Shown here: piece by piece, positions 12,183-56,882 of the stretch | Layout: the number at the start of each line of letters is the position of its first letter | Position numbering within the stretch: position 1 is the stretch's first letter | Virus record (IMG/VR): IMGVR_UViG_3300027965_000006 | Coordinates: 1-58,379 of that record | Source of the DNA: a virus | Reading direction: 5' to 3' (one strand) | DNA length: 58,379 nucleotides | Made by a program: the position numbers and the translations under genes | The notes under the pieces: model-generated | The model's database searches: none | Told to the model about the DNA's origin: nothing | Seen by the model: the letters and a program-made list of their open reading frames with translations, nothing else

Positions 12183-12677
12183 ATGGAAAGGCCAACCCGC
12201 GAAACCCTGATCGCCGACGCTCGCCAAGCCAAGGCGGCCGCTCTTGAGCAGCGCGACGTCAAGGCCATCGACGCCGCAAGCGATCTCCTCCGCCAGCTCG
12301 GCGACGACCGCTTTACCGAGCAAGAGCGGCAAGAGATCAGCCTGATCGCCGAGCTCGACGCCATCGGCACTGCGCTCTATCGCCATTTCGACCATGACGG
12401 ACGATTGCTCTATGTCGGCATCTCGTTGAGCGCCGTCACGCGCACCGCACAACACCGCAGTCGCGCCCCCTGGTTCAGCCAGATCACGCGAATCGAGATC
12501 GAGTGGCACAAGTCCCGCTCAGCCGCAGCACTTGCCGAAAAGCGCGCAATCAAGGCCGAGCGCCCGCTCTACAACATCGTCCACAACGAGGCCGACAATG
12601 GCGACCCTGACAAACCCCAAACACGAACGGTTCGCGCAGGAACTCGCAAACGGCGTAAGTGCAAGTCAGGCCTATGA
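12183..12677 (+). CDS. GIY-YIG nuclease
   Basis: 164 aa. The central domain has ALYRHFDHDGRLLYVGIS (GIY..YVG variant: LYR...LYVG), an Arg in AVTRTAQHRSRAPWF, and a C-terminal AEKRAIKAERPLYN with catalytic-type Glu and Asn. The N-terminal 45 residues are helical. Free-standing GIY-YIG genes beside terminase are usually homing or packaging-linked. Its 3' end overlaps the small terminase start by 80 nt. A TTGACA at 12096 has no good -10 partner. Confidence 0.8.
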   Translation: MERPTRETLIADARQAKAAALEQRDVKAIDAASDLLRQLGDDRFTEQERQEISLIAELDAIGTALYRHFDHDGRLLYVGISLSAVTRTAQHRSRAPWFSQITRIEIEWHKSRSAAALAEKRAIKAERPLYNIVHNEADNGDPDKPQTRTVRAGTRKRRKCKSGL

Positions 12678-13128
12678 AAAAGCCGGCTTCAGGCCCAATC
12701 GGCCAAACGCTTCGCGCCTACGACACTCCGAACACATAAAGCAACGCGTCGCCGAATTGCTCGCGGCAAGGCAGCGGCAAGCCGAGAAAGCGTCCGAAAA
12801 AGCCCTGCGCGAGCTCGCAATCGATCGCCGATGGGTGCTAGAGCGCCTCGTCACGAACGCCACGACCGCGCTGGAGAACGGCGACGGCAGCGTTGCAAAC
12901 CGCGCGCTTGAGCTGATCGGGATTGAGCATGGCATGTTTATCAAGCGCAGTGAGACCGGCGGCCCCGGCGATTTCGCCGCGATCCAGAGCGCGCAAGACC
13001 TGATTGCTCAAGTCCGTCAACAGCTTGGCGACAAGTTTGCTGACTTCCTCGCCAGCGAGCTCGGTGCCGACGACGTGCCGCCGATCGACTTGGCAACGGT
13101 TGAGACCGCCAATCGAGACGCGACATAA
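12598..13128 (+). CDS. Terminase small subunit
   Basis: 176 aa from ATG 12598; the frame upstream is a shadow of the nuclease. The N-terminal DNA-binding region NPKHERFAQELANGVSASQA, then YEKAGFRPNR, is the typical TerS helix-turn-helix, followed by helical oligomerisation segments (HIKQRVAELLAARQRQ) and an acidic tail. It recognises packaging sites and feeds DNA to TerL. TerL is unusually distant (12.3 kb away, across the glycan operon). Confidence 0.85.
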   Translation: MATLTNPKHERFAQELANGVSASQAYEKAGFRPNRPNASRLRHSEHIKQRVAELLAARQRQAEKASEKALRELAIDRRWVLERLVTNATTALENGDGSVANRALELIGIEHGMFIKRSETGGPGDFAAIQSAQDLIAQVRQQLGDKFADFLASELGADDVPPIDLATVETANRDAT

Positions 13129-14605: not shown

Positions 14606-15652
14606 TCAGCTCTTCGCGAGCGCCCATTCGCCGATCGGCTCGCCGCGGGCGATGTCGCGCGGGCATGTCCGGCCGATCAGGTCGGGCAGCCTGCTCGGCG
14701 GCAGGCCGTGGCCGGGCCGGATCGAGCGGATGTTGGTCTCCGTGAAGGGGGACCCGGCCGCGATGTCGGCAACCGCGAATACGGACCGCCGCAGCGGGCG
14801 GTGCATGTCCTGGCTCGGCGCCGGCGATGGCTGGCAGGCCGCCCAGGCGTTGCGGACCGCGGCGGCCATGGCGGCGAATTCCTTCGGCTCGAGGCTGAAC
14901 GTGGCGTCAGGCGTGGTGCTGGACAGGGTGAAGTGCTTCTCGACGATGGCCGCGCCGAGGACGGTTGCGGCGACGGGGATCTCGATGCCGGTGGTGTGGT
15001 CGGACAGGCCGGTCTCGGCGGCAACGCCGAAGGCCTGCCGCGCCCACAGCGGACCCCGCAGCCACGCCATGCGGCGCAGATTGGCCTCCCCGGCCGGGAC
15101 GGGATAGCCCGATACGCAGTGCAGGAGCGCAGCACCGTCGGCACCGTGCGTCGCATGAAGGGCGCTCCGGATTTCCTTGTCGCTCGCCATCCCGGTGGAG
15201 AGGATCATCGGCTTGCCGAGCCGCGCGGCGTAGCGGATGAGCGGGGCGTCGACGAGCTCGAACGACGCGATCTTGATTGCGGGGGCCTCGAGGCGCTCCA
15301 TGAGGTCGACGGACGATTTGTCGAACACCGAGGCGAACCAAGTTATCCCCAGTTTTTTTGCATGCTCGGCAATTCGGGGAAACCACGCGAACGGCGTCTG
15401 CGCGCGCCGGTAGAGGTCGTAGAGCCGCTGTCCCTTCCATGGCCCGTCGGCGATAACGAACTCCGGCCGGTCGCAGTTGAGCGTGATGGTGTCGGCCTCG
15501 TAGCACTGGAATTTTACACAATCCGCGCCAGCTGCCTTCGCCGCATCCATCGTGCGCAGCGCGAGGTCGAGGTCGCCGCCGTGGTTCGCGCCGATTTCGC
15601 AAATCAGGTATGGCGGCTGGTCAGCGCCGATTGATCTTCCGTCGATATTCAT
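14606..15652 (-). CDS. NeuB/PseI-type nonulosonic acid synthase
   Basis: 348 aa. Predicted to condense phosphoenolpyruvate with a 6-carbon diamino- or acetamido-sugar to a 9-carbon nonulosonic acid. ICEIGANHGGDLDLAL, GADCVKFQCYEADTIT, WKGQRLYDLYRRAQTPF (closest in style to PseI), IKIASFELVDAPLI and STGMASDKEI trace the TIM barrel. The C-terminal about 60 residues (RRSVFAVADIAAGSPF, RPGHGLPP) form an antifreeze-like SAF domain. Start 15652 overlaps the upstream gene by 32 nt. Key enzyme of the cassette. Confidence 0.9.
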   Translation of the reverse strand: MNIDGRSIGADQPPYLICEIGANHGGDLDLALRTMDAAKAAGADCVKFQCYEADTITLNCDRPEFVIADGPWKGQRLYDLYRRAQTPFAWFPRIAEHAKKLGITWFASVFDKSSVDLMERLEAPAIKIASFELVDAPLIRYAARLGKPMILSTGMASDKEIRSALHATHGADGAALLHCVSGYPVPAGEANLRRMAWLRGPLWARQAFGVAAETGLSDHTTGIEIPVAATVLGAAIVEKHFTLSSTTPDATFSLEPKEFAAMAAAVRNAWAACQPSPAPSQDMHRPLRRSVFAVADIAAGSPFTETNIRSIRPGHGLPPSRLPDLIGRTCPRDIARGEPIGEWALAKS

Positions 15653-15893
15653 CGGTCCACATCTCGTGTTCGTATCGAGCGATTGGCTGACCCTCGTACA
15701 TACCAGCCGTCCAATCCCAATCCTTCATGAACTCGATCACGTCGGCGCGCCGCCATCCTTTGATCTGAAGCAGGGCTTGCGCGAGTTCTTCCGGAATCGG
15801 AAGTTCCTGCGCGAGCCAGTTGATGATGACGCATTCGATGACCGACGCTGGATTGAGCGGCGTCTGATACCAGATCGGGAAGATGTCGCGCAC
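15621..15893 (-). CDS. Hypothetical protein, 90 aa (GTG start)
   Basis: Starts at GTG 15893 (M/V-RDIFPIWYQTPLNPASV), the only start after an in-frame stop. Aromatic-rich helices (ECVIINWLAQELPIPEELAQ, VIEFMKDWDW). Between the 44-aa ORF and neuB. Unknown. Confidence 0.6.
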   Translation of the reverse strand: MRDIFPIWYQTPLNPASVIECVIINWLAQELPIPEELAQALLQIKGWRRADVIEFMKDWDWTAGMYEGQPIARYEHEMWTDEYRRKINRR

Positions 15894-15897
15894 AGGA

Positions 15898-16032
15898 TCA
15901 TTCCGTCTTCACACCGAGCGCCTTCGCACTCATGGTGACGATCCGCTGAAACGAAAGCGCCGTCATCGGCTGGTGATACATCATGACCGGCCATGCGACG
16001 GACGAGAGGAAGCGGGCGCGCCAGCGTTTCAT
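15898..16032 (-). CDS. Small basic protein, 44 aa
   Basis: ATG 16032 follows AAGGTGACATGTAA. Encodes MKRWRARFLSSVAWPVMMYH, then ends SAKALGVKTE. A basic N-terminus and a short hydrophobic middle suggest membrane association. Tandem position in the operon supports it. Confidence 0.5.
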   Translation of the reverse strand: MKRWRARFLSSVAWPVMMYHQPMTALSFQRIVTMSAKALGVKTE

Positions 16033-16039
16033 TTACATG

Positions 16040-16486
16040 TCACCTTAGACTGTCGAATTTGGCGACGCGCTCGATGTCGACCGTTTCTGCCTTGATCAGC
16101 CCCTCGCAGACCATCCGCTCAATAATTCGCCGGTCGTAATGCGTCCCGTAACAAGTCGCCTGATCCCCAAGACTTGGAGAGTAGGTGCGATGATCGCCAT
16201 GAATCGATGTGTATTGTCGGCCGATGCGCAGGTCACTTAGGAACTTCGATGCTTGCTTCTGGTACTCGTGTTCCGTCAGCGGGTTTTCCCCAAACCTCCC
16301 GCCATTCTTGCCGAAAATCGCGACAAATGGTTGCCCCTGACGCTCCCGGTGTTCGATTCCTATTCCACCGCCGGCTGGCGTTGCGACTGAGACTGGCCAG
16401 TCTGGTGGAAATGCCGATAACATTTCCATGAAATCGGCGACGGTTTCTGGACCGTCCCACATGCTCTCGTATTTTTTATTGGTCAT
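16040..16486 (-). CDS. Hypothetical protein, 148 aa
   Basis: Starts MTNKKYESMWDGPETVADFM, overlapping the aminotransferase stop by 11 nt. Polar, alpha/beta, with FPPDWPVSVATPAGGGIGIE and a C-terminal YDRRIIERMVCEGLI helix. Less GC-rich than the sugar genes. Unknown. Confidence 0.6.
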   Translation of the reverse strand: MTNKKYESMWDGPETVADFMEMLSAFPPDWPVSVATPAGGGIGIEHRERQGQPFVAIFGKNGGRFGENPLTEHEYQKQASKFLSDLRIGRQYTSIHGDHRTYSPSLGDQATCYGTHYDRRIIERMVCEGLIKAETVDIERVAKFDSLR

Positions 16487-17609
16487 TTGCTAGCCTCATA
16501 TACGCGGCGACTTTCTGGAACGCCGTGCCGATCTGCCTGATCTGCGCGAGCGTCGGGTCCCACGCGCAGTTTTCGAAATAGAACAGCCGATTGTCGTGCA
16601 GGTCCTCCGCGACGCGGCACGGCCGCGCGAACTTCGCGAACGCGGGCAGGCGATAGAGCGGGGCCACATAGCCCTCGACGAGCGGGACGCCCTCGGCCGC
16701 GAGCGCCTGCACGAATGCCGCGCGTCGCCGTGCGCCGCCGTCGATCAGGAACGGGATCGTGTAATAGACGTGCGTGCAGCCAGGCCGCACCACCGGCGGC
16801 CGCAGCCCCGCAATGTTGCCGATCGCGTCGATGATCGCCTCGGCCTTCTCGACGCGATCCTGCACGAGGCGCTTGCCCTTCTTCAACTGCGCGAGCGCGA
16901 TGGCGGCGGTAACTTCGGTCATGCGCAGATTGAGGCCGACGCGGTCGCCCGCCATCTCGCCGTGATTGATGAAGTGGCGCATCTTGAGCGCGAGATCGGC
17001 GTCATCGGTCGTGCAGACGCCTCCCTCGCCGCTGTTCCAATGTTTGTGGACATTCATGCTCCAGCAGCCGATATGCCCGATCGTGCCCGCGTAACGTCCG
17101 CGCTCTATCGCGAACGGGGACTGAGCATTGTCCTCAATGATTGGACGAGCAGGACTCATGAACCTGGACATCTCGTTCACCTGAGCTGGATGACCAAACA
17201 GATTCGTGACGATGGCGCACTTCACGGCGATGTTGATTCCGGAGCTTCCGAAGCTTTCATCTTCGCAATCGTCAAAATGCAGTTTCGCTCCCAGCAATGC
17301 CGGCGCGGCCGCGCTTGCGCTCATCGTGAGACAGGGGACGGAGACTGGATCGCCGTGTTCGACGCCGGCCGCAGCACATGCCGCCAACAGTCCACTCGTC
17401 GCCGAATTGCACGCGACGGCATTCTTGACCCCGAATTCCTTGCACCACGCCTCCTCAAGCGCGCGCACCCAATAGCCGCCGCGCTCCTGCCCGCCGATGA
17501 AACCGGACAGCGGCCAGCTCATCGCGGTGACGGCGGCCTCGCGCTCCTCCTTGCCGATCGAGCGGTAGGGAAGAATCGGCGTGGTGACGGCGGGGCGCGG
17601 GTCCGTCAT
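16476..17609 (-). CDS. DegT/DnrJ/EryC1-family sugar aminotransferase (PseC-like)
   Basis: 377 aa, normal family length. PLP-dependent. NSATSGLLAAC binds cofactor phosphate, IIEDNAQSPF (D160) contacts the pyridine N, and SMNVHKHWNSGEGG carries the Schiff-base lysine K189. NHGEMAGDRVGLNLRMTEV, then AAIALAQLKK, are typical substrate-loop motifs. It probably aminates the 4-keto-6-deoxy sugar made by the PseB-like dehydratase. The exact sugar cannot be told from sequence. Confidence 0.87.
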   Translation of the reverse strand: MTDPRPAVTTPILPYRSIGKEEREAAVTAMSWPLSGFIGGQERGGYWVRALEEAWCKEFGVKNAVACNSATSGLLAACAAAGVEHGDPVSVPCLTMSASAAAPALLGAKLHFDDCEDESFGSSGINIAVKCAIVTNLFGHPAQVNEMSRFMSPARPIIEDNAQSPFAIERGRYAGTIGHIGCWSMNVHKHWNSGEGGVCTTDDADLALKMRHFINHGEMAGDRVGLNLRMTEVTAAIALAQLKKGKRLVQDRVEKAEAIIDAIGNIAGLRPPVVRPGCTHVYYTIPFLIDGGARRRAAFVQALAAEGVPLVEGYVAPLYRLPAFAKFARPCRVAEDLHDNRLFYFENCAWDPTLAQIRQIGTAFQKVAAYMRLANDQ

Positions 17610-17618
17610 TTGGGCTAT

Positions 17619-18620
17619 TCAGCCTTCGTTTTTGAAACTGTTGAAACCAACTTGACGGCGCATGCCACCTCGGCCATCCGAGGCGATGGCCTCGCTTCGC
17701 ATCTCGTCGAGGCGTTGAAAAACCTCGTCCTCAGGCTGTTCAAAGCAGCGCGCGGCAACGATAACCTCTCGCAAATGGGCGATGCTGTAGCCCTCGGATC
17801 GCTTTACCCAACGAGCCAGCGTCACGTCGTCAAGCGCCGGCTCTTTGGCTTTGAAGTAGACCCGTCGCGCCTCGGCAGAGGGCATGTCCACCAGCATGAT
17901 CGTATCGAAGCGCGATGGGCGGTCGACAAATCGGCGATCGAGATATTCGGGATAGTTCGTCGTCGCGACGTGTACGACGTTGGAAATCTGCGTCTCGCCA
18001 TCCAGCAGCGCCAGAAATCCATGATCGCCGTGGCGCTGCACCAGCGCGTCGAGGTCTTCCATGATCGAGATCATGGGGCGCGCCGGCTCGATCCGGCGAA
18101 GGACCGAGATGCACATCGTTGCAAGCGCCGGGTCTTCGACGAAGATCACGACGCCGTTGTGAGACCGAACAAGTTCCTGCGTCATCTGCCAGATGGCACT
18201 CGTCTTGCCGCTGCCCGGAGGACCCCAAAGAAGGAGGCCGCGCTTGAAGGTAAAGCCGCGCTCGGCAAAATTGGCGCGCAGGGTCCAGAACTTTCGGAAT
18301 TCGGATAGCAGCTTCTCGACCGCCCCATCTGGCAGATGAAGGAGACTGTCGATCTCGATAGGCATCTTTTCGAGGTACGGGCCGCGATTGGAGATACGGC
18401 ACCGATAGGCGCCCGCGGGGATTTCCTTGACGACATCAGTGACGGGAAAGAACGCATCGCCACTTTGCGCCCAGCATCTCGCGCTCGCGGCAATCTGCGC
18501 CCATTCGTTGTCAACGGGCGCCACAGCCTGCGACGCTTCTGGGTAACCCTGGGAGTGGGCCCCTACCATCGTCCCAACCCGGTTGGCAAAACTGGCGTTG
18601 CTCAATTGCGCTCCCTTCAA
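17619..18620 (-). CDS. BCS1-like AAA+ ATPase
   Basis: 333 aa. Walker A GPPGSGKT (133-140), Walker B ISIMEDLD (184-191), sensor-1 in ATTNYPE, and an arginine region DRPSRFD are all present, so ATPase activity is expected. The N-terminal 120 residues have no recognised domain and no clear transmembrane helix. It lies between two sugar genes with ATGA coupling. It could remodel a protein complex or act in phage defence or assembly; function unknown. Confidence 0.8.
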   Translation of the reverse strand: MKGAQLSNASFANRVGTMVGAHSQGYPEASQAVAPVDNEWAQIAASARCWAQSGDAFFPVTDVVKEIPAGAYRCRISNRGPYLEKMPIEIDSLLHLPDGAVEKLLSEFRKFWTLRANFAERGFTFKRGLLLWGPPGSGKTSAIWQMTQELVRSHNGVVIFVEDPALATMCISVLRRIEPARPMISIMEDLDALVQRHGDHGFLALLDGETQISNVVHVATTNYPEYLDRRFVDRPSRFDTIMLVDMPSAEARRVYFKAKEPALDDVTLARWVKRSEGYSIAHLREVIVAARCFEQPEDEVFQRLDEMRSEAIASDGRGGMRRQVGFNSFKNEG

Positions 18621-19480
18621 GATCGGGCCTCCAGCGCCGCGCGCAATTCATCCACGCTCATGCGCCGGGCCTTGTCGCTGCTGTTGCCGGGTCCCATGCT
18701 CTCGTGTTTCTTTTCGAACGCGGGAAGCCCGCGCACGTCCATCGTCGCGCCCATGGCTTCGGCAAGGTCGCCAAGCCGATAGGCGGGCAGTGTCGGTATC
18801 ATCACCTCGCCGCCCTTCATGGTCTCGATCGTGTTGAGCACGAGGTCGACGGCCTGATCCATCGTCATGAAGAATCGCGTGCAGTCGGGATCGGTGACCG
18901 GCACCGACGGCGCGCCGCCGGCGATGATCTCCTTCCACGTCGGGACGACGGAGCCGGTTGACGCCCAGACATTTCCATATCTGCAGACGGCGAAGATCGG
19001 ACCGTTCCAGCCGCGCGTGTTGTTGGCGTTGAGGAACAAGGATTCGGCGAACGCCTTGCTCGTGCCATAGGGGCTGACGGGTTCGAATGCCTTGTCGCTC
19101 GACAGGGCGACGACGCGGCACACGCCGGCGTCTTGCGCGGCCTCGATCACGTTGGTGGCTCCGTCGATGTTGGTTTTCTTGACCTCGATCGGGTTGTAGG
19201 CGCCGACCTCGATGCGCTTGAGCGCCGCGGCATGAACGACGGTCTCAATGCCGTGCATGGCGCGGTGCAGGCGGTCGCGGTCGCGGACATCGCCGATGAA
19301 CATGCGAAGCGTGCCGAACTGATCGAGCGCGGATAGTTCGCGCAGCATGGCGGCCTGCCGGTGTTCGCTGCGCGAATAGATCACGATGCGATGGGGCGGG
19401 GACGGCAAGCGGAGCAGGCGCTTGGTGAACGCCGTTCCAAACGCACCCGAGCCGCCGGTGATGAGGATGCTGCCGATCAT
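18617..19480 (-). CDS. PseB-like UDP-sugar 4,6-dehydratase
   Basis: 287 aa from ATG 19480 (GGGAGCGCAG site), a little short for PseB (about 330). Extended-SDR fold: ITGGSGAFGTAF nucleotide loop, IYSRSEHRQAAMLREL, FIGDVRDRDRL, VVHAAALKRIEVGAYNPIE, then ALSSDKA and SPYGTSKA (YxxxK), all hallmarks of inverting UDP-GlcNAc 4,6-dehydratases. First committed step of pseudaminic-type pathways. Confidence 0.88.
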   Translation of the reverse strand: MIGSILITGGSGAFGTAFTKRLLRLPSPPHRIVIYSRSEHRQAAMLRELSALDQFGTLRMFIGDVRDRDRLHRAMHGIETVVHAAALKRIEVGAYNPIEVKKTNIDGATNVIEAAQDAGVCRVVALSSDKAFEPVSPYGTSKAFAESLFLNANNTRGWNGPIFAVCRYGNVWASTGSVVPTWKEIIAGGAPSVPVTDPDCTRFFMTMDQAVDLVLNTIETMKGGEVMIPTLPAYRLGDLAEAMGATMDVRGLPAFEKKHESMGPGNSSDKARRMSVDELRAALEARS

Positions 19481-19623
19481 CTGCGCTCCCACGGCCGGGC
19501 GCATTTGCGGCGGGACACGAAGATCAGTTTGCGCAAAAAATCCTCCCATTCGATCGCGGTCCGGTATTGCTTTGCGGTGCAGCGCCATTCGCGATCGAAC
19601 CAAAAGTGGAGCAAGTCGAGCAT
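19477..19623 (-). CDS. Small basic protein, 48 aa
   Basis: ATG 19623 overlaps the stop of the fused transferase gene (TGATG) and its own stop overlaps the dehydratase ATG, filling an otherwise empty 143-bp gap. Encodes MLDLLHFWFDREWRC, ending RRKCARPWERR. Aromatic and basic. Unknown. Confidence 0.5.
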   Translation of the reverse strand: MLDLLHFWFDREWRCTAKQYRTAIEWEDFLRKLIFVSRRKCARPWERR

Positions 19624-21650
19624 CACGATGCCCTCACCATCGGCGCGATCGTCGCGCCCTCGAGGCGCCGCGCGATATTGTCGTGATCAAGTGCCTCGCG
19701 CATGATCGCCAGCGTGTGGTCATAGGATTTCAGAACGCGCTTGATATCGCCTTGCGTGTGGGCATAGCAGATGTTGTGCGATCCGATGATCAGGGTCCCG
19801 CTCGCGATCATCTCTTTGCGGAACAGAGCCCAGAGCTGGTCGACCGTCGCATTCTCGTGCGCCTTCATCGAAATGCGCTTGAGCGGGGCCTGACCATAGA
19901 GGCCGATCACGTCACCGAGTCCGTGCGCGCGGATGAGGTCGGTAACGTCGCTGCGCAACGTCTCGCCGGTCTCCCAAATCTTGTCGATGACGTTCTCGCG
20001 CTCCATCTTCGCAATGGTCGCGATCGACGCCGCGAGCGACAGCGTCTCGCCGCCGAACGTGCCGGAGAAGAACACGCACGGGTTCGGCGGCTCCAGCTTG
20101 CGCATGATATCGGCGCGCCCGACCAGCGCGGACAGCGGCATGCCGTTCGCCATCGCCTTGCCGAAGCAGGCGAGGTCCGGCGTCACGCCGTAGTATTCCT
20201 GCGCACCGCCGAGTGCGAAGCGGAAGCCGGTGATGACCTCGTCGAAGATCAGGAGGGGTCCTTCTTTGTCGCAGACATTACGCAGGTATTGCAGATATTG
20301 TGGGTTGCCTTCCGGCTCGACGATGATTGCAGCTACGTTGGAGAGGTCGTCGGGCGGACACTGGCTGAAATCAAGTCGTGCCGTCAGCTCCTTGACCGCA
20401 GTCGGCACGCCGAGATCGCGGAACGCGCCCGCGATCGACCAGTCATGCCAGCCATGATACCCGCCGCAGATGAGCACGCGGTCGCGGCCCGTGTAGGCGC
20501 GGGCGAGGCGGATCGCCGCCGTCGTCACGTCGGAGCCGTTCTTGCCGAACCGCACCATCTCGGCGCACGGGATCAGCCGCGTGAGCTTTTCGGCGAGCTG
20601 CGCTTCGAGTTCAGTGGAGAGACTGAAAGAGGCTCCAGATGCAAGCTGAGTGCGCACGGCACGGTCAACGTCTGCGTCACGGTAGCCAAGAATGTTTGGC
20701 AGCAGTGCGGACACGAGATCGACAAACTCGTTCCCGTCGATATCCCAACAGACTCCTCCCTGCCCGTGACTGAGGAAGAGCGGGGAGGGCTGGGGGAATT
20801 GAACGAAAGACTTGCTGAAGGTTTGCGCTGCGAGCGGGATGACTTTGTGCGCGCGCTCGAACTGCGCCTGCGACCTTTCGTATGACCGCGGGATGATCGG
20901 CTCATTGGCGATGGCCTCATAGTAACGTTCGTTCATCGGGTGGTGCCGGTTGATCTTGCGCAGCTCAGGCTTGCGGTCGAGCACGGCAAGGATATCGAGG
21001 TAGCGCGCGGGCGGGCCGTGCAGCTCGTTGGCGATGGCACTGCAGAACCGATAGTCGTTTTTGGTGTCGAGCACCCAGCGCTCTTTGTGCAAGCCGGGGA
21101 TCGGACACACGACCGCCGCGGCCGGCAGGCGCGAGCGGTTGCGCTGGATGAAGGTCGTGACGCACTCACGGTCGATCGGCCGCGTTGCGACTTCATGCGC
21201 GAACGCGAGCGAGTCGAAGGTGAATGCTTCGACATCAAGCCCGTCCGGCCATGTACGCGGATCGATGTTGGAGACGTAGTCGGCGCCGGTCTCCTTCTGC
21301 AGACGCACGACCTCGCCGATAACGTATGGATCGATGAACGGGCAGTCTCCGGTGATGCGCACGACGATGTCGGCCTCGACCTCTGCGGCTGCGCAATAGA
21401 CGCGGTCGAGAACGTCGTTCTCCGAACCCTGGTAGCAGGGAATATCATGGCGAGCGCACCACGCCCTGATCGGATCGTCGCCGACGAGCCCGGTCGTGGC
21501 GACGACGACTTGGTCGACGCCGGCCGCAGCGCGTGCAGCAGTGTAGACCCAGTGCAGCACCGGACGACCATCGCGGCCGAGCGGCATCAGCACCTTGCCG
21601 GGCAGGCGAGTCGAGCCCATGCGGGCGATGATGACGGCGGTTACGGTCAT
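19623..21650 (-). CDS. SpsF-type cytidylyltransferase fused to class-III (GSA-type) aminotransferase
   Basis: 675 aa, two domains. Residues 1-245: nucleotidyltransferase with RMGSTRLPGKVL (10-21) and RITGDCPFIDP (98-108), the CMP-sugar activating type. Residues 255-665: glutamate-1-semialdehyde aminotransferase-like, with NGSDVT (371-376), GGYHGWHDW (396-404), IFDEVITGFR (468-477) and PLP lysine K498 in FGKAMANG. Such fusions occur in bacterial surface-polysaccharide clusters. It probably makes a CMP-activated sugar and an amino group on a precursor; the order of reactions is unknown. Confidence 0.9.
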   Translation of the reverse strand: MTVTAVIIARMGSTRLPGKVLMPLGRDGRPVLHWVYTAARAAAGVDQVVVATTGLVGDDPIRAWCARHDIPCYQGSENDVLDRVYCAAAEVEADIVVRITGDCPFIDPYVIGEVVRLQKETGADYVSNIDPRTWPDGLDVEAFTFDSLAFAHEVATRPIDRECVTTFIQRNRSRLPAAAVVCPIPGLHKERWVLDTKNDYRFCSAIANELHGPPARYLDILAVLDRKPELRKINRHHPMNERYYEAIANEPIIPRSYERSQAQFERAHKVIPLAAQTFSKSFVQFPQPSPLFLSHGQGGVCWDIDGNEFVDLVSALLPNILGYRDADVDRAVRTQLASGASFSLSTELEAQLAEKLTRLIPCAEMVRFGKNGSDVTTAAIRLARAYTGRDRVLICGGYHGWHDWSIAGAFRDLGVPTAVKELTARLDFSQCPPDDLSNVAAIIVEPEGNPQYLQYLRNVCDKEGPLLIFDEVITGFRFALGGAQEYYGVTPDLACFGKAMANGMPLSALVGRADIMRKLEPPNPCVFFSGTFGGETLSLAASIATIAKMERENVIDKIWETGETLRSDVTDLIRAHGLGDVIGLYGQAPLKRISMKAHENATVDQLWALFRKEMIASGTLIIGSHNICYAHTQGDIKRVLKSYDHTLAIMREALDHDNIARRLEGATIAPMVRAS

Positions 21651-21856
21651 TTGCTGCTATTGATCTGTATGTTCATCGATTGGAGCATGTCGCTTGCGTG
21701 CACCCATGCGACGCCGTTCCAAACCTCGAAATCGGTTATCTCCTCCGGAGGAGTTCCTGGCGGGTAATCTCCGGTGACATGAACGTCGCCGAGGTAGGGA
21801 TTCTCGGGGCGCGGTGAGGGGCCCGGATAGTCCGGGTATCGGAGCTCCCGTTTCAT
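21647..21856 (-). CDS. Hypothetical protein, 69 aa
   Basis: Starts MKRELRYPDYPGPSPRPENP; Pro-rich, then EVWNGVAWVHASDMLQS. ATGA-coupled at both ends between two sugar genes. The FEVWNGVAW stretch resembles small beta modules of phage structural proteins. Unknown. Confidence 0.6.
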   Translation of the reverse strand: MKRELRYPDYPGPSPRPENPYLGDVHVTGDYPPGTPPEEITDFEVWNGVAWVHASDMLQSMNIQINSSK

Positions 21857-22728
21857 GTCGGCAGCCCCGCCATCTTGCGCGCGTCGAGGCAGAGCCGCAG
21901 TACGGCGAGTCCGTCCTCTCCGGTGGCGCCGCGCGTTTCCTTGCCTTCACAGCGATCGACGAAGGCGCGCATCTCGGCCATGTAGTCGTCGTCCCATGAC
22001 GCGAAGCCGCTTGCGGACATTCGATTTGTTCCCACTACGAGATCAGAGGATCGTCTTTCCAGGTCCACCGCGATCAGGCCATGCTCGCCTGCGATGACGA
22101 AGGTGCGAAAACTCGGAGCGGTGACGTAGTCGAGATGCACAGTCGTCCGCGTCATGTCGTCGTGCACCAAAAAGAGATCAGCTATTTCGTCTCCATCCGT
22201 CGAAGCCGCAGAGGCCAAAGTCGCCGGACCGAGCAGATGCAGCGCAAGATCGAGTTCGTGTGCTCCCCAGTTCAAAATGACGCCATCCCGCCGATAGGCC
22301 GGGCGGTTATTTTTCTGAGCGCAGGTGAAGTTAGCCCATAAAGGCTTGCCGATCGCAGTGGCGCCGAGCCAGCGCTTTGCGTCAATGACCGATTGATGAA
22401 ACCGCAACATGCACCCGACCATCACCTGCGCGCCGTTCTTCTTTGCCAGCGCGAGCAGGTCGGTGATGACCTCCGGGCTGCCGGTCGCGATCGGCTTCTC
22501 GACGAAGATGTGCTTGCCGCGCTCGGCTGCGGCGCGGATGCCGCCGGAATGGAATGCGCTCGGCGTCGCGATCACCACGGCATCGCAGATGTCGTAGACC
22601 TCGCGCTCGAAACTCATGTCCATCCGGCCGGCGGGGTCGAAGTGGATCACGTCATGCCCGAGCGCGGAGAGATTCGCGGCGTGGCGCGAGCCGATCGATC
22701 CCGCGCTGCCGAGGACGCCGATCTTCAT
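21853..22728 (-). CDS. Gfo/Idh/MocA-family oxidoreductase
   Basis: 291 aa. N-terminal Rossmann GVLGSAGSIGSRHA (4-17), then HIFVEKPIATGSPE (catalytic Lys in EKP, 77-79), LNWGAHELDLALHLLG (His/Asp in the substrate site) and a C-terminal alpha/beta domain. NAD(P)-dependent oxidation or reduction of a sugar or inositol. ATG 22728 with a GAGGAGCGCCC site. In this cassette it could oxidise a nucleotide-sugar carbon before transamination. Confidence 0.87.
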   Translation of the reverse strand: MKIGVLGSAGSIGSRHAANLSALGHDVIHFDPAGRMDMSFEREVYDICDAVVIATPSAFHSGGIRAAAERGKHIFVEKPIATGSPEVITDLLALAKKNGAQVMVGCMLRFHQSVIDAKRWLGATAIGKPLWANFTCAQKNNRPAYRRDGVILNWGAHELDLALHLLGPATLASAASTDGDEIADLFLVHDDMTRTTVHLDYVTAPSFRTFVIAGEHGLIAVDLERRSSDLVVGTNRMSASGFASWDDDYMAEMRAFVDRCEGKETRGATGEDGLAVLRLCLDARKMAGLPT

Positions 22729-23330
22729 GGGCGCTCCTCGATCAGATGACCCTTGCGCAGTGCGGTCACGCATTCGTCGCCAATGATCCGGCGCTCCATC
22801 AGCATGTACCAAGGATGCGCCAGCCACAGTTTTGCGAAGTCGAAATGATAGGCGGTCACGCCGGCGTTGTGCTTGTAGAAGCGAGCGAAGGACTCGCCCT
22901 TCACGGCAAAGTCGTGGATGACGAGAACGCCGGTGTAGAAGGTCAGCACGCGGTTGACCTCGGCGGCGATGCGCAGCCAATCGGCGGGATCGGTCAGATA
23001 CAAACAGAACCCGCAGATCACGAGATCGAACATCTCGCGGCCAAGCGGAAGGGAATCGGCGGTGCCGCGCGCGGCCGGGACGGAGTTGAGCCCGCCCGCC
23101 TCGGCGACCGCCTTCGCGCTCGGGTCGACGCCGAACACCTCGCATCCGTATTGTGCGCGCAGCCGAGCGAGCCGCCATCCGTTGGCGCAGCCTATTTCGA
23201 GCACGCGCTTCGGCTGCAGGCGGAGATCGGCGATGACCTCGCTCACCGGATCGTGCTGGCCGAGCTTGGCGCGGTTGCGCTCCAGCCACGCATCGCCTTC
23301 CGATTCGAGCATGATGTCGGTCTGGCTCAC
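22725..23330 (-). CDS. SAM-dependent class I methyltransferase
   Basis: 201 aa from GTG 23330 (GTGA overlap). Motif I VLEIGCANGWRLARLR (43-58), then FGVDPSAKAV, then FDLVICGFCLYL. Similar small methyltransferases decorate surface sugars; O- or N-methylation of the nonulosonate is inferred from context. Confidence 0.83.
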   Translation of the reverse strand: MSQTDIMLESEGDAWLERNRAKLGQHDPVSEVIADLRLQPKRVLEIGCANGWRLARLRAQYGCEVFGVDPSAKAVAEAGGLNSVPAARGTADSLPLGREMFDLVICGFCLYLTDPADWLRIAAEVNRVLTFYTGVLVIHDFAVKGESFARFYKHNAGVTAYHFDFAKLWLAHPWYMLMERRIIGDECVTALRKGHLIEERP

Positions 23331-23731
23331 GGACGAAGCTCGTAGGTGTGTTGCAGCGCCTTGAAGCCGAGGCACTGGAACATGCGGGCCGAGCGTGCGT
23401 TGCCCGGCGCGACGTTGGCGAGATAGCGCTCACGCGGATGCGCCTTCATCAGCAGGCTAATCGCGGCCGGCGCGTAGCCGCGACCCCAGTACGACTTGAA
23501 GATCGACACGCCGATCTCGTCATCGACCGTGAGATAGATCGCGCCGACATATTCGCCGTCGACCTCGATGAGGTACCACTCGGTATAAGGTCTGGAGGCG
23601 AAAAATCTCGCGTGCTCGACGAGCGCCGGCATCTTGCGATGCGAGATGTTCGCTTCGGCCGGACGCTCCGCGAGCAGGTCGTAGAGCAGCGGCATCGCGC
23701 CGTGCTCGGTATAGGCATCGACAAGTTTCAC
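23327..23731 (-). CDS. GNAT acetyltransferase 1 (PseH-like position)
   Basis: 134 aa from GTG 23731 after GGGAGGTTCCG. The GNAT core is visible: WYLIEVDGEYVGAIYLTV, then IFKSYWGRGYAPAAISLLM (acetyl-CoA loop, Q/RxxGxG/A variant) and GNARSARMFQCLGFK. Probably N-acetylates the amino-sugar intermediate as PseH does. Confidence 0.82.
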   Translation of the reverse strand: MKLVDAYTEHGAMPLLYDLLAERPAEANISHRKMPALVEHARFFASRPYTEWYLIEVDGEYVGAIYLTVDDEIGVSIFKSYWGRGYAPAAISLLMKAHPRERYLANVAPGNARSARMFQCLGFKALQHTYELRP

Positions 23732-24243
23732 CGGAACCTCCCGTAATAGACGGCGGCGGTGAGTTCGTTCCCGAGCATGAAATGCGCGCGGCGCTCGCCC
23801 TCGAAGGTGAAGCCGGACCGCTCCGCGACCTTGCGCATGGCGTGGTTCGCCGCCATGAATCCGCATTCGAGCTTGCGGAAGCCGCCCGCATCCTTGTCGA
23901 GCAGCCATGCCGATGCGGCCTTGAACGCCTCAGTCGCAAATCCCTTGCCCCATTGCTCGCGGTCGCCGATCATCACGCCGAGATCGGCGATGTGATTGGG
24001 CTCGTCGGCGTCGGCTGAGATGTTGCCGATGTGCGCGCCGTCGGCGACGTGCTCTATGGCCCAGAGATGGCTGCCGGGCGGGCGCGAGCGGATGTAGGTC
24101 AGTTGGGATGACAACGAATGGTGCGCATGCCGTTGTTCGGAGAACGCGACAACTTGCGGATCACGCAACCAATCGACTTGGCGCTGCGTGGCCTTGGTCA
24201 GCGGCCGCAGGACGAGGCGCTCGGTGTTCAAAGTTGGCGTCAT
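23728..24243 (-). CDS. GNAT acetyltransferase 2 (RimJ/RimL-type)
   Basis: 171 aa from ATG 24243. NTERLVLRPLT start typical of RimJ/L, then GVMIGDREQWGKGFATEAFK (CoA-binding QxxGxG-like), and NHAMRKVAERSGFTFEGERR. Two acetyltransferases in a row would allow di-N-acetylation, as in di-acetamido nonulosonic acids. Confidence 0.84.
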   Translation of the reverse strand: MTPTLNTERLVLRPLTKATQRQVDWLRDPQVVAFSEQRHAHHSLSSQLTYIRSRPPGSHLWAIEHVADGAHIGNISADADEPNHIADLGVMIGDREQWGKGFATEAFKAASAWLLDKDAGGFRKLECGFMAANHAMRKVAERSGFTFEGERRAHFMLGNELTAAVYYGRFR

Positions 24244-25304: not shown

Positions 25305-25415
25305 GTGCTGATTGATACCAAACTGACACCAAAACGCAATAAGAATGAGTAACGGTTCATCTTATCCACCGTTTTTGCTATGCTTTCGGTCGATGCGCGC
25401 TTCGGAGCAGCAAAA

Positions 25416-28226
25416 ATGGGCATGACGCCGGCTCAGGCGGCGGTTTTCGCCCGCGCGCTCAAGCGCGGCCGCGAAATCCAGGAGGCGGAGCGCTGCGAGG
25501 CGAGCCTCTACGAGTTCGTCAAGGCTGCCTGGCACGTGTTCGACCCGGCCGAGTTCGTCGGCAACTGGCACCTGGAGGACATCTGCGAGCACCTGGAGGC
25601 GGTGGCGCGCGGCAACATCCCGCGGCTCCTGATCAACGAGCCGCCGCGCACCGGGAAGACCGCCCTGGTATCGATCTGCTTCCCGGCGTGGGTGTGGGCG
25701 CAGCGCGAAAAGGGCCCGCTGATGGGCCCGCAGGTCTCGTTCTACTACGCGAGCTACGCCGAGCAGCTGTCGCTCGAGCATTCGCTCAAATGTCGGCGCC
25801 TGATCGAATCGCGCTGGTATCAGCGGCTATGGGGCAGTCGCTTCAAGCTGGTCTCCGACCGCAATACCAAGGGGCACTTCGAGAACGACAAGGGTGGCTA
25901 CCGCATGGCGTCGTCGGTCGACGCGAGAGCCACGGGGTTTGGCGCGGATATCTTGTGCCTGCCAAAGGATGAGCATATACTCACGTCTTCGGGATGGCTC
26001 CCGATCGGAAAAATAGTTGGGGAAAAACTGGACGTCGAGGTCGCGGGCTATGACCACGCGACCGGATGTGTCGTTTGGCAGAGAATCCTTGAGCACGAAC
26101 AAAATCCGGGACGGCCGCTCGTCGCAGTCACTTTTGATGGCGGCTCTTTTCGGTGCACCGACGACCATCCCGTCTTCGTCGAGGGACGGGGTTACGTCCC
26201 CGCCGGAAGCGTCCGTGTCGGTGACCGCCTCATCCTGTGTGATCTGTCAGGGCCCGCTCTATTTCGCGAAACGCAGGGCGAGCAACAAGGTGACGTGCTC
26301 GGCGCGATGCTATGCGGAACTACAGCGGCGCAGGATCGCGGCGAGTACCACGCCATGCAGGGTATGCGGCGCCCCGGTCTACGCGACGCCAGCACACCGA
26401 CGCCGTGGCAATGGGCAGTATTGCTCAAGGGTTTGTTCAGGAAAGGCAGAAGCCGGCGCGAAAAATCATCAGTGGCTTGGCGGAAAGGTTACGAAGAACT
26501 GCAAGCGTTGCGGTGCCGAGTTTCGCTGCGATCCGGGGCAATCGGCGCGACGGCAATACTGCAGCCATTCGTGCACTTCTCGTTCGGCATGGGATCGGCG
26601 CGGTCGGATGCCGTGGCGAAATTGCGAGGAGTGCGGGCTGCCGTTCAAGCGTGGCGCAGTGGACGGCAAGAAGGTCAGATTCTGCTGCAAGGCATGCAAG
26701 GACCGGGCGCATGCCAAAGAGATGCGGGACCGGGGCAATCCGCGCTACGTCCACGGCGAATCTCGGCGGCGATACGGGCGTGGTTGGACAAGGGGGCGCA
26801 AGCTATCCGTTCGCTCTCGGGATGGCTTCATGTGCCGCGTTTGCAGCCTGCCGGAATCGGAGCATGGGACGGCGTTGCACGTGCACCACATCAACTACGA
26901 CAAGAACGACATGGCGCTCGACAACCTGATTTCAGCCTGTCGCGACTGCCACGGTCGGATGCACGGGACGCCCGACCAGCGCAAGGAGTGGCAACGGCGG
27001 TTGTCCGCTCTATTGAGCGCGCCGGCTACGCCGAGCACACCTACAATCTCAATGTAAGCCCCTGCCACAACTACTTTGCCGGCGGCGCGTTGCTGCACAA
27101 CTGCGCCGACGACCCGCACCTCGTGAAAGAGGCCGAATCGGACCTCGTGCGCGAGGGCGTGGTGCGGTGGTGGAGTGAGACGATGCCGAGCCGCATGAAC
27201 GACCGGCGCACCGGCGCCATGGTCGTGGTGATGCAGCGCGTGCACGAAGGCGATCTTTCGGGGCACATCCTCGCCAACGACCTCGGCTACGTGCATATCT
27301 GCGTGCCGCTCTGCTACGTGCCGTGCTTCCACGTCAATGCCTGGGTCGGCGACCGGATCGAGACGATCATCGGCGAGGAAGACGTCGCGGAAATTGCTGA
27401 CGAGGACGTGTTCTGGACCGATCCGCGCACCGAGGAGGGCGAGCTGCTGTGGCCCGCCCGCCTGCCGGCGAGCGAGGTGGCGAAGATCGAAAAAGAGGTG
27501 GGCCCGTATGGGTTTGCGGGGCAATACCAGCAGGAGCCGGCCCCGCGCGGCGGCGGAATCATCCGCGCCGAGTGGTGGCAGCAATACAACGACGACGTCG
27601 GGGCCGACGCCGGCGCCAAGCCGGGGCAATACCCGCCGTGCGAATACATCCTCGCGTCGCTCGACACCGCCTACACCGAAAAAGAGGAAAATGACTATTC
27701 GGCGCTGTCGATCTGGGGCATCTGGCGCGACAAGAACGGCAACCCGCAGATCATCCTCATGCTGTGCTGGCAGGAGCGGCTCCAGATACACGAGCTGGTG
27801 AGCCGGGTCGGGGCGGACTGCAAGACCTTCACGGTCGACCGGCTGATCATCGAGGACAAGGCGGCCGGCCATTCGGTGAGCCAGGAACTGGCGCGGCTGT
27901 TCGGCACGTTTGATTTCGGCATCGAGCTGGTCAATCCCCGGACCGGGTTCATCAAATCGCCCGACAAGGTGGCGCGGCTGCAGACGGTGGTGCACTTGTT
28001 CGCCGAGGGGCTTGTCTGGGCTCCGGACAAGGCGTGGGCGGACGAGATGATCAAGCAGTGCGCCCTGGTGCCGCGCGCGCTGCACGACGATCTGGCGGAT
28101 TCGATGAGCCAAGCCCTGATCTACCTGCGCCGCGCCGGCTGGGCGCAGCGCAAGGAGGAGCGGGCGATCGAGGTCGAGGACGAGCTACGCTATCGGCCCC
28201 GGTCCGGGGCGCTCTATCCGGTGTGA
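25416..28226 (+). CDS. terL: Terminase large subunit with in-frame intein
   Basis: 936 aa from ATG 25416 (GGAG site at -9; ATG 25380 is an alternative). Extein: Walker A NEPPRTGKT, C-terminal RNase H-like nuclease with ASLDTAYTEKEEND, IEDKAAG and HDDLADSMSQAL. A 382-residue insert (25956-27101) starts at Cys and ends HN before Cys, between FGADIL and CADDPHLVKEAESD. Removing it restores a continuous Walker B (ILCADDP) and a 554-aa terminase of ordinary length. The motor needs splicing to be active. Confidence 0.93.
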   Translation: MGMTPAQAAVFARALKRGREIQEAERCEASLYEFVKAAWHVFDPAEFVGNWHLEDICEHLEAVARGNIPRLLINEPPRTGKTALVSICFPAWVWAQREKGPLMGPQVSFYYASYAEQLSLEHSLKCRRLIESRWYQRLWGSRFKLVSDRNTKGHFENDKGGYRMASSVDARATGFGADILCLPKDEHILTSSGWLPIGKIVGEKLDVEVAGYDHATGCVVWQRILEHEQNPGRPLVAVTFDGGSFRCTDDHPVFVEGRGYVPAGSVRVGDRLILCDLSGPALFRETQGEQQGDVLGAMLCGTTAAQDRGEYHAMQGMRRPGLRDASTPTPWQWAVLLKGLFRKGRSRREKSSVAWRKGYEELQALRCRVSLRSGAIGATAILQPFVHFSFGMGSARSDAVAKLRGVRAAVQAWRSGRQEGQILLQGMQGPGACQRDAGPGQSALRPRRISAAIRAWLDKGAQAIRSLSGWLHVPRLQPAGIGAWDGVARAPHQLRQERHGARQPDFSLSRLPRSDARDARPAQGVATAVVRSIERAGYAEHTYNLNVSPCHNYFAGGALLHNCADDPHLVKEAESDLVREGVVRWWSETMPSRMNDRRTGAMVVVMQRVHEGDLSGHILANDLGYVHICVPLCYVPCFHVNAWVGDRIETIIGEEDVAEIADEDVFWTDPRTEEGELLWPARLPASEVAKIEKEVGPYGFAGQYQQEPAPRGGGIIRAEWWQQYNDDVGADAGAKPGQYPPCEYILASLDTAYTEKEENDYSALSIWGIWRDKNGNPQIILMLCWQERLQIHELVSRVGADCKTFTVDRLIIEDKAAGHSVSQELARLFGTFDFGIELVNPRTGFIKSPDKVARLQTVVHLFAEGLVWAPDKAWADEMIKQCALVPRALHDDLADSMSQALIYLRRAGWAQRKEERAIEVEDELRYRPRSGALYPV
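25956..27101 (+). other. Hint-type intein in TerL (382 codons)
   Basis: Block A CLPKDEHILTSSGWLPIG starts with the nucleophilic Cys; block B FRCTDDHPVFV has the TxxH motif; block F HTYNLNVSPCHNYFAGG and block G LLHN+C close it. In the terminase frame the roughly 750 nt between about 26250 and 27000 read as low-complexity Arg/Ala/Gly sequence, because the endonuclease lies in another frame. Confidence 0.9.
26215..27057 (+). CDS. Zinc-finger HNH homing endonuclease nested out of frame in the intein
   Basis: The +1 frame is open from 26017 to 27057. The conserved part starts near 26236: four tandem C-x2-C...C-x3-C (or C-x2-C) modules, then VRSRDGFMCRVC, HVHHINYDKND and LISACRDCHGRMH, a complete HNH domain. 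GTG 26215 with GGAAG 6-7 bp upstream is a plausible own start (280 aa); earlier ATGs exist at 26017 and 26137. Expected to nick or cut intein-free terL alleles. Confidence 0.75.
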   Translation: MSVTASSCVICQGPLYFAKRRASNKVTCSARCYAELQRRRIAASTTPCRVCGAPVYATPAHRRRGNGQYCSRVCSGKAEAGAKNHQWLGGKVTKNCKRCGAEFRCDPGQSARRQYCSHSCTSRSAWDRRGRMPWRNCEECGLPFKRGAVDGKKVRFCCKACKDRAHAKEMRDRGNPRYVHGESRRRYGRGWTRGRKLSVRSRDGFMCRVCSLPESEHGTALHVHHINYDKNDMALDNLISACRDCHGRMHGTPDQRKEWQRRLSALLSAPATPSTPTISM

Positions 28227-34977: not shown

Positions 34978-35892
34978 ATGCCCGTCGCACTCAGTCAAAT
35001 CCGCGACCTCCTGCTCCCCGGCCTGTGGGGCATCGACGGCAAGTATCCGCAGATCGAGCGCCAGTGGCCGCAGATCTTCAAGCGCGTCCAGTCGAACATG
35101 GCTTTGGAGCGCCGCGCCGCGATGCGCTACCTCGGCTACGCCCAGCTCAAGAACGAGGGCCAGCCCACCGCCGCCGACAACAACATGGGGCAGCGCTACA
35201 TCTACAACGCCGAGCACTTCGAGATCGGCCTGATGTACGCGATCACCCGCAAGGCGATCGACGACAATCTCTACAAGAACGAGTTCGGGCCGAACAACGA
35301 CGGCCTGATGGAGGCGTTCAAGGAGACCGAGGAGGTCTACGCCGCGAACGTGCTCAACAACGGCAACGTGTTCAACGTCGTGACCCAGGGCGACGGCGTT
35401 TCGCTGATCAACACGGCGCACCCGATCGACGGCGCGACCATCGCCAACCAGCCCTCGCCGGACGTTTCGCTCAACGAGACCTCGCTGCTCAACGCCGCGA
35501 TCACCGTGCGCTCGACCTGGAAGAGCAATGCCGGTCTCAAGATTCACGCGCGCGGCCAGAAGCTGATCGTCCCGGCGAATCTGGAGCCGATCGCGGCGCG
35601 CCTGTTCCGCTCCGAGTTGCGCGTCGGCACCGGCAACAACGACATCAACGCGGTCAAGGAAATGGAGCAGTCCTTCAAGGAGGGCTACTTCGTCTACGAC
35701 TACCTGACCTCGTCGTTCGCCTGGTTCGTCAAGACCAACATCGATGGCCTCGTGTTCTTCGAGCGCAAGCCGTTCGAGTCGGACATGAGCGTCGAGTTCA
35801 CGACCGACAACCTGCTGGTCAAGGGTTATCAGCGCTACATCCCGGCCTACTACGAGTGGCGCTCCCTCTACGGCACCTATCCCACCTCGTAA
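34978..35892 (+). CDS. Major capsid protein
   Basis: 304 aa. LLPGLWGIDGKYPQIERQW, YIYNAEHFEIGLMYAITRKA, LKIHARGQKLIVPANLEP, DGLVFFERKPFESDMSVEF match the HK97-fold coat with N-arm, E-loop and P-domain order of Mu-F/P22-like heads. No N-terminal delta domain, consistent with a separate scaffold. Confidence 0.85.
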   Translation: MPVALSQIRDLLLPGLWGIDGKYPQIERQWPQIFKRVQSNMALERRAAMRYLGYAQLKNEGQPTAADNNMGQRYIYNAEHFEIGLMYAITRKAIDDNLYKNEFGPNNDGLMEAFKETEEVYAANVLNNGNVFNVVTQGDGVSLINTAHPIDGATIANQPSPDVSLNETSLLNAAITVRSTWKSNAGLKIHARGQKLIVPANLEPIAARLFRSELRVGTGNNDINAVKEMEQSFKEGYFVYDYLTSSFAWFVKTNIDGLVFFERKPFESDMSVEFTTDNLLVKGYQRYIPAYYEWRSLYGTYPTS

Positions 35893-56423: not shown

Positions 56424-56882
56424 ATGATCGCCCTGCAGTTCGCCGCCGAGGATGGCTGGCCGTCGCGCCTGATCGAGTTCTATGGGCACGGCGCGTTCTC
56501 CCACGTCGACGCCGTGCTGCCCGACGGCAACCTGCTCGGTGCCCGGCTGATGGGCGGCGTCGCCATCCGCAAGGACGGCTACGCGCATTTCGCCCGCACG
56601 CGACGCATCGACCTCGATGCGCTCGCGACGCCGGCGCAGGCCGAGGCATTCTACGCTTTCCTGACCCGTCAGGTCGGCAAGCCTTACGATTCATGGGCCA
56701 TCGCCGGGTTCGTTTCGGGACGCGACTGGCGCGCCGACGACAAATGGTTCTGCTCCGAGCTCGCCGCCGCGGCGCTGGAGGCGGCCGGCATCATCCGCAG
56801 GCTGCTCACGCCCGCGAACAAGCTCACGCCACCCGACCTGCTGCTGGTGCTGAGCGCGCTGACCGACCTGGAGGCGGCCTGA
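56424..56882 (+). CDS. Papain-like (YiiX/YaeF-type) amidase or peptidase
   Basis: 152 aa. GHGAFSHVDAVLPDGNLLG (His of the permuted papain fold), VGKPYDSWAIAGFVSG, then KWFCSELAAAALEAAGI with the catalytic Cys. Enzymes of this C92-like type are common in phage lysis cassettes and probably hydrolyse a cell-wall or lipid amide. Confidence 0.8.
   Translation: MIALQFAAEDGWPSRLIEFYGHGAFSHVDAVLPDGNLLGARLMGGVAIRKDGYAHFARTRRIDLDALATPAQAEAFYAFLTRQVGKPYDSWAIAGFVSGRDWRADDKWFCSELAAAALEAAGIIRRLLTPANKLTPPDLLLVLSALTDLEAA

Follow-up and report, generated by a model that had tools for sequence, protein, structure and literature searches.

The sugar gene cluster between the terminase genes

The stretch of DNA analysed here (the window) is one virus record from IMG/VR (IMGVR_UViG_3300027965_000006), 58,379 bases long, the genes of which were called with an in-house codon model. 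Between the genes for the small and the large terminase subunit (TerS and TerL) it harbors a cluster of eight sugar-enzyme genes, all located on the minus strand from position 14606 to 24243 (Table 1), which encode a predicted pathway for a modified nonulosonic acid. Portal, capsid and other virion genes are located downstream. Each of the eight genes has a clear family match (E-values from 1e-8 to 1e-112). Judged from these values, the conserved active-site motifs and the gene order, which recurs in over 25 independent viral contigs, chance is excluded as the source of the cluster. Since it lies between the two terminase genes and is kept at this place by the whole clade of related phages (see below), the cluster is regarded as phage DNA. 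Host sequence at a prophage junction is thus ruled out, and the phage-borne nature of the cluster, claimed in an earlier annotation of this locus (the original prediction), was confirmed.

From the first GNAT gene (GNAT1) through the PseB gene, successive genes overlap by 1 to 4 bp, as expected for translational coupling. Past PseB the coupling is looser, with a 9-bp gap preceding the DegT gene, and the enzyme genes are interleaved with several small open reading frames (ORFs) and a gene for an AAA ATPase, which is specific to the window genome and was not found in the clusters of its relatives. Of the eight genes in one coupled operon that had been predicted, all genes are therefore present, while the coupling is tight only from GNAT1 to PseB.

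The synthase scored 373.5 bits against the PseI equivalog model (TIGR03586, cut-off 340.25 bits), and its best match in the PDB is PseI of Campylobacter jejuni (8h2c, 4e-67). Five of its residues (K47, K127, H219, E238 and H240) are invariant across 11 phage homologues, and E19 and E132 are nearly so; from what is known of NeuB, we take these residues to line the active site. The PseB-like protein is a short form, for which TIGR03589 is the best family (298 bits, below the cut-off of 407.75). It matches the UDP-N-acetylglucosamine (UDP-GlcNAc) C6 dehydratase 2gn4 (1e-65), and S127, D129, K130, Y138 and K142 are invariant. In the fusion of an SpsF-type cytidylyltransferase with a GSA-type aminotransferase (SpsF-GSA), the motifs STRLPGK and FGKxMxNG (K498) are invariant in 14 phages; the SpsF-type part, a CTP_transf_3 domain with intact motif, is the predicted synthetase of the sugar activated with cytidine monophosphate (CMP). 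The DegT-family aminotransferase, with an invariant K189 within NVHKH among the phage homologues, scored below every equivalog cut-off (113.9 versus 423.5 bits with the PseC model). The two GNATs, for which only generic family matches were obtained, are the candidates for PseH; GNAT2 is found in few relatives, and also in L005 and L049. Homologues of the methyltransferase adjoin NeuB or SpsF-GSA genes in bacteria (47% identity in L184, 41% in L255 and 39% in L247). The PseI-family synthase together with the cytidine triphosphate (CTP) transferase domain bears out the predicted nonulosonic-acid-type pathway. As to the configuration of the product, the synthase family favours a pseudaminic over a legionaminic type.

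Table 1. Positions of the genes discussed in the text (window coordinates unless a contig is named) and matches obtained for their products.
Feature	Position	Strand	Match or remark
Terminase small subunit (TerS)	12532..13128	+	phrog_51 2.6e-17
Nonulosonic acid synthase of PseI/NeuB type, SAF domain at the C terminus	14606..15652	-	PF03102 1.3e-72; PF08666 SAF 5e-11
Small ORFs within the cluster	15621-15893, 15898-16032, 16040-16486, 19477-19623		
DegT-family sugar aminotransferase, second type distinct from PseC	16476..17609	-	PF01041 5.9e-45
AAA ATPase (non-sugar enzyme)	17619..18620	-	PF00004 1e-10
PseB-like UDP-GlcNAc 4,6-dehydratase, short form	18617..19480	-	PF02719 1.7e-72
SpsF-type cytidylyltransferase (about residues 1-230) and GSA-type class-III aminotransferase (about residues 255-675), fusion	19623..21650	-	PF02348 9e-24; PF00202 6e-46
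Small ORF within the cluster, 69 amino acids, coupled	21647..21856	-	4-bp overlap at either end
Gfo/Idh/MocA oxidoreductase	21853..22728	-	PF01408 1.8e-15; PDB 3c1a 8e-11
Class I SAM methyltransferase	22725..23330	-	PF13649 8.5e-14
GNAT N-acyltransferase 2	23327..23731	-	PF13302 3e-9
GNAT N-acyltransferase 1	23728..24243	-	PF13302 8e-21
Terminase large subunit (TerL), intein-interrupted	25380..28226	+	phrog_38 1.8e-79
Portal protein	28514..30949	+	phrog_1216 8e-24; 45% to MW202675
Major capsid protein	34978..35892	+	58% to annotated major capsid protein of MW202675
Putative CMP-nonulosonate transferase, GT42-like fold, C-terminal coiled coil	38047..38976	+	AlphaFold/Foldseek
Ser/Thr-rich (25%) protein, 875 amino acids	38980..41607	+	Adjoins transferase gene; no Pfam match; PHROG 18251
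Membrane acyltransferase-3 (OafA-like O-acetylase)	47927..48940	-	PF01757 1.4e-24
Compact PseI-like synthases	L354:115-777, L151:10917-11567, L351:162-803, L352:166-813, L353:162-791, L341:6152-6778		

Conservation and inheritance in the phage clade

The portal protein was used as the marker of the clade, and a portal scan yielded 80 viral loci, among which presence or absence of the cluster was scored in those extending 2.5 kb or more upstream of TerL. The relatives are metagenomic contigs, none of them known to be complete, and the trees are quick ones. The cluster is located at the same place in all 17 relatives with a portal identity of at least 55% and in none of ten more distant ones. 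In the whole contigs from 16 cluster-bearing phages that were compared for gene order, TerL is followed by the divergent genes GNAT1-(second methyltransferase)-methyltransferase-Gfo-SpsF/GSA-PseB-(extra gene)-DegT-NeuB. DegT, PseB, SpsF-GSA, Gfo and GNAT1 are encoded in all cluster-positive genomes (17/17, counting the window), and the methyltransferase and NeuB are missing from a few, partly at contig edges. Tailoring genes are variable in the relatives, which carry a second methyltransferase, a formyltransferase-like gene, or the combination of ATP-grasp-like, PIG-L-like and GNAT genes (by sequence inspection).

The phage SpsF-GSA proteins form one clade and so do the phage DegT proteins (SH-aLRT 100 each). 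Distances between the SpsF-GSA proteins follow those between the portal proteins (Mantel r 0.87), the capsid proteins (0.81) and the TerL proteins (0.89), with p = 0.001. The monophyly of the key enzymes and their co-divergence with portal, capsid and TerL indicate that the cluster is an old core module, inherited mostly vertically but with exchanges of single enzymes. NeuB distances track the phage markers less closely (Mantel r 0.33 to 0.49), and one relative (G008) carries an unrelated NeuB. A sporadic moron or auxiliary metabolic gene set was rejected as an explanation in view of the presence in 17/17 members of the clade with sufficient sequence, the monophyly and the correlation with the portal.

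A search of 397 Hyphomicrobiales genomes gave two matches to the portal profile. The one examined is a cluster-negative prophage, which shares the capsid (58%), the portal (47%) and virion genes; it belongs to the same order as L184, a Hyphomicrobiaceae metagenome-assembled genome (MAG) with a related bacterial sugar cluster.

Six phages (G002, G003, G041, G045, G054 and the distant phage L341) encode compact PseI-like synthases of approximately 208 to 220 amino acids, which lack the SAF domain and have an internal deletion. The catalytic residues are retained, and the compact proteins are 60 to 68% identical to one another. An AlphaFold model of the compact form (pTM 0.82) matches PseI (8h2c) with an E-value of 9e-11.

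The candidate transferase in the virion block

A putative transferase for the activated sugar is encoded inside the capsid/tail (virion) block, beside spike-like genes; it had not been noted in the original prediction. The family, to which a faint similarity to MptE in three relatives had first pointed, is 55 to 66% identical among 13 phages. Its AlphaFold model has a mean pLDDT of 74, with values of about 62 to 93 over residues 60 to 210 (mostly 80 to 93 with dips). In a Foldseek search against the PDB, ranks 1 to 12 were all occupied by Cst-I/Cst-II sialyltransferases with probability 1.0 and E-values of 1e-4 to 4e-4, which depend on this mid-confidence model; the matches after rank 12 were weaker. 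A fold search of a viral library returned a mimivirus DUF115 protein at rank 6. Since the fold search returns Cst-I/II, a GT42-like protein is preferred over a member of the MptE/Maf group. Membership in the latter was rejected, as full Pfam scans gave weak signals and hhalign to the MptE-like protein of an unrelated phage (L002, see below) found nothing. The predicted fold thus resembles that of the GT42 enzymes Cst-I and Cst-II, which use CMP-activated nonulosonic acid; unlike these, the phage protein has no clear sequence homology to them and carries a long C-terminal coiled coil.

The transferase family was not found in 17 cluster-negative records, including the complete MW202675 and the 61-kb G023, the others being mostly short contigs; the same search also overlooked the family in G001, a partial contig that does carry the cluster. 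No homologue was seen in the cluster-negative Hyphomicrobiales prophage either. Conversely, when contigs were collected by means of the transferase family, SpsF-GSA was encoded on all eight that measured at least 57 kb. In L341, which has a different TerL and portal, GSA aminotransferase, aldo-keto reductase, SpsF-type protein, NeuB in a short form, PseB (70%), portal protein and transferase-like protein are encoded one after another in a single run of genes on one strand. Because of the co-occurrence in both directions and this gene run, the association between sugar synthesis and the transferase gene is strong, and a transferase activity of the gene product is presumed. Other glycosyltransferases were not seen in the clade among the 25 Pfam families listed, out of 52, in a tally of 104 other proteins.

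The long Ser/Thr-rich protein encoded next to the transferase is, speculatively, a candidate acceptor or spike. In several relatives the spike-like neighbours have beta-propeller, TIG or pectate-lyase-like matches. A variable Ser/Thr-rich spike block was considered as a hallmark of the clade and rejected, as a cluster-negative phage has one too.

Two further relatives of the transferase candidate were observed. A 31% identical homologue is encoded by the Microcystis phage Mvi-Yong1342-1 (PP496355.1 34781-35584, L348), where it is annotated as a type 11 methyltransferase and located directly upstream of the terminase small subunit. A 33% identical one is located on another phage contig (L344:10013-10726), in the vicinity of glycosyltransferase-like genes and of genes for two aminotransferases of the DegT type.

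Proposed pathway, acceptor and known systems

In the pathway proposed here, host UDP-GlcNAc would be converted during infection to a 4-keto-6-deoxy sugar by PseB, from which the aminotransferases, the oxidoreductase, the GNATs and the methyltransferase would form a hexose with two amino groups, acylated and perhaps also methylated, with the Gfo/Idh oxidation and the methylation at unplaced points of the pathway. Release from UDP might be mediated by a host hydrolase or by an unrecognised enzyme in place of PseG. PseI would then condense the hexose with phosphoenolpyruvate, SpsF would activate the product with CTP, and the GT42-like protein would transfer the activated sugar to an acceptor. Since the transferase gene is located in the virion block by spike-like genes and the window yielded no integrase, a virion surface protein is considered the most likely acceptor; the sugar might shield or modulate the surface of the particle, or assist in adsorption. 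Sugar product, acceptor and enzyme activities are what we infer from the gene set. That a core module of this tailed-phage lineage makes a modified nonulosonic acid and attaches it, most likely to the virion, appears to us about evenly balanced between right and wrong. The wider statement that the whole lineage decorates its own virions by means of the terminase-side operon and the GT42-fold transferase, some members with an SAF-less synthase, is put forward more tentatively.

Several observations weigh against virion decoration by a self-contained phage pathway. The UDP-sugar hydrolase PseG was found in none of 21 phage records searched over whole contigs, with positive controls detected, and the window itself is no exception. 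No PseC orthologue was found, the phage DegT being below the PseC cut-off and in a separate clade: in the tree it falls among bacterial DegT proteins of a second type, encoded downstream of NeuB, and not with the PseC adjoining PseB. Due to the missing PseG and PseC orthologue, the phage pathway is not simply the textbook one, and the phage gene set alone may not suffice; to call it near-complete, as in the original prediction, was an overstatement. One relative (G017) seems to have no NeuB adjoining the cluster. For the transferase candidate, the TM-scores to Cst-I/II are modest (0.29 to 0.46), the GT42 assignment rests on the model with pLDDT 74, the catalytic His of Cst was not located in it, and sequence profiles were not significant (sialyltransferase 9c08, E = 1; MptE-like, 0.039 in 2 of 13 members). 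Furthermore, the spike-like genes next to it vary in a cluster-negative phage as well.

The original prediction had named host O-antigen, capsule or flagella as the target of the sugar. This is one option only: the same sugar could be placed on host lipopolysaccharide, capsule or flagellin, in a lysogen or during infection, with a change of receptor, superinfection or immunity. Precedents exist, as the prophage genes epaA and epaB convert host pseudaminic acid to its 8-epimer in the Acinetobacter capsule (PMC12053666) and nonulosonic sugars of capsules are substrates of phage O-acetyltransferases (PMC6586298). Homologous bacterial clusters appear to serve surface glycans, one of them (L255) adjoins flagellin-type genes, one cluster-negative relative is a chromosomal prophage, and the window carries an OafA-like acyltransferase gene, which lies on the opposite strand between the gene for the tail collar and further late genes and, within the set, is present in the window genome only. 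On the other hand, no tyrosine integrase (PF00589) was found in the window and only one exceeded the cut-off among 19 records; a repressor-like gene is present in the window. No O-antigen polymerase, flippase or glycosyltransferase of the membrane type was recognised among the cluster genes, the candidate transferase looks soluble and is encoded among virion genes, and the conservation throughout the clade is unlike that of patchy conversion genes. With the virion-block transferase and the lack of a window integrase tilting the balance to the virion, modification of the host surface, although the main rival, is rather unlikely in our view.

The absence of PseG and PseC from the phages, together with PseG being encoded in all 12 bacterial genomes tested that have the SpsF-GSA fusion (11 over the cut-off), would also fit a module that supplements a host pathway, using the PseC, PseG and transferases of the host and boosting or tailoring the host sugar, e.g. 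to keep a receptor available. The variable tailoring genes of the relatives (second methyltransferase, formyltransferase-like, PIG-L-like deacetylase, ATP-grasp-like) are in line with this. However, the phages retain the committed steps (PseB-like, PseI and CTP-transferase) and, on fold evidence, a transferase of their own, and L341 retains a minimal set of the same kind, so that supplementation is deemed improbable. An unrelated product, with the PseI-like synthase using another acceptor aldose or serving another purpose, might be suspected from the several enzymes below equivalog cut-offs and the shortened, SAF-less synthase of some relatives. It is very improbable, as PseI is over its cut-off, the shortened synthase is predicted to fold like PseI, and NeuB and PseB accompany the fusion enzyme in most of the best bacterial loci.

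In these bacterial loci, the best 80 of at least 579 confirmed SpsF-GSA relatives from a genome scan, NeuB was encoded in the flanks of 60 and PseB of 57. The fusion gene of the window is likewise clustered with PseB and NeuB, which assigns the cluster to the SpsF/GSA type of nonulosonic acid clusters. Among the matches listed, the nearest bacterial SpsF-GSA relatives are alphaproteobacterial (54 to 50%), and the phage enzymes nest beside alphaproteobacterial ones in the tree. The bacterial clusters of L184, L185 (Paramagnetospirillum) and L255 (Aeromonas caviae) share PseB, Gfo or an aldo-keto reductase, SpsF and GSA, and PseI with the phage cluster, often also the methyltransferase; by sequence inspection, that of L255 is followed by flagellar-type genes (flagellin, FliD/FliS-like), and bacterial SpsF-GSA clusters look like surface-glycan clusters. 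In contrast to them, the phage set lacks PseG and PseC, has the second DegT type, is located next to the terminase genes and is accompanied by a transferase gene in the virion block.

The CMP-pseudaminic acid pathway of Helicobacter and Campylobacter (PseB-C-H-G-I-F) has in common with the phage set the PseB-like protein, PseI, a GNAT and a predicted CTP-transferase activity; the phages differ in the absence of PseG and PseC, the SpsF-type protein for PseF and the additional Gfo/Idh oxidoreductase, GSA aminotransferase and methyltransferase. An SpsF-type cytidylyltransferase and a NeuB-type synthase (SpsE) are also found in the sps legionaminic acid pathway of Bacillus subtilis, which, unlike the phage set, includes the PseG-like SpsG, yields legionaminic acid and serves the spore crust. 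SpsF is required for sugar delivery to the spore surface of B. subtilis (PMC7439481) and has been described as a replacement of NeuA (PMC7371886). In an O-antigen locus of Legionella, a GSA aminomutase gene adjoins those of a cytidylyltransferase and PseG (PMC3694923). The epaA-epaB genes in Acinetobacter baumannii are likewise phage genes concerned with a nonulosonic acid, there of the bacterial surface; in contrast to the window cluster they only epimerise the host-made sugar, include neither a synthase nor a transferase of their own, and are patchy in presence.

Phages are known to change the surface sugars of their hosts by means of one or two genes and, in few cases, to glycosylate their own particles, as do mycobacteriophages. 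Particle glycosylation has been predicted for Maravista (PMC11256854). As in such self-glycosylating phages, a phage-encoded transferase is suspected here of modifying virion proteins; those phages carry transferases, whereas in the present clade the transferase comes with an operon for the synthesis of an unusual sugar. Among isolate phages, a collection of 50,697 records gave no more than three NeuB matches, all of them weak, PHROGs gave no match for the synthase, and no match for phage-borne nonulosonic acid synthesis of this kind was found in the open-licence literature. Within these searches, the combination of known parts into a core module of phages, together with a likely transferase, is new. 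If the proposed pathway is correct, the virus would bring its own surface chemistry rather than borrowing that of the host, and the benefit for which phages bear the cost of such a coat could be put to the test, be it evasion of surface-binding defences, spacing from host glycans or adsorption. The SpsF-GSA fusion, the compact PseI-like synthase and the new sialyltransferase-fold family are of interest as enzymes.

A second, independent phage nonulosonic acid set with a possible transferase is found in the unrelated phage L002 (IMGVR_UViG_3300028837_001401), in which NeuB-like, CMP-transferase-like, KdsC-like and MptE-like (PF01973, 97.6 bits) proteins, several of them named by sequence inspection only, are encoded among structural genes. 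Elsewhere in the window, the TerL intein extends over approximately 25956-27101 (about residues 181-562 of the TerL reading) and is missing from TerL in the relatives analysed, and a small protein encoded near the lysis genes (56424-56882) matches PHROG 1128, an enoyl-CoA hydratase/carnithine racemase-like moron.

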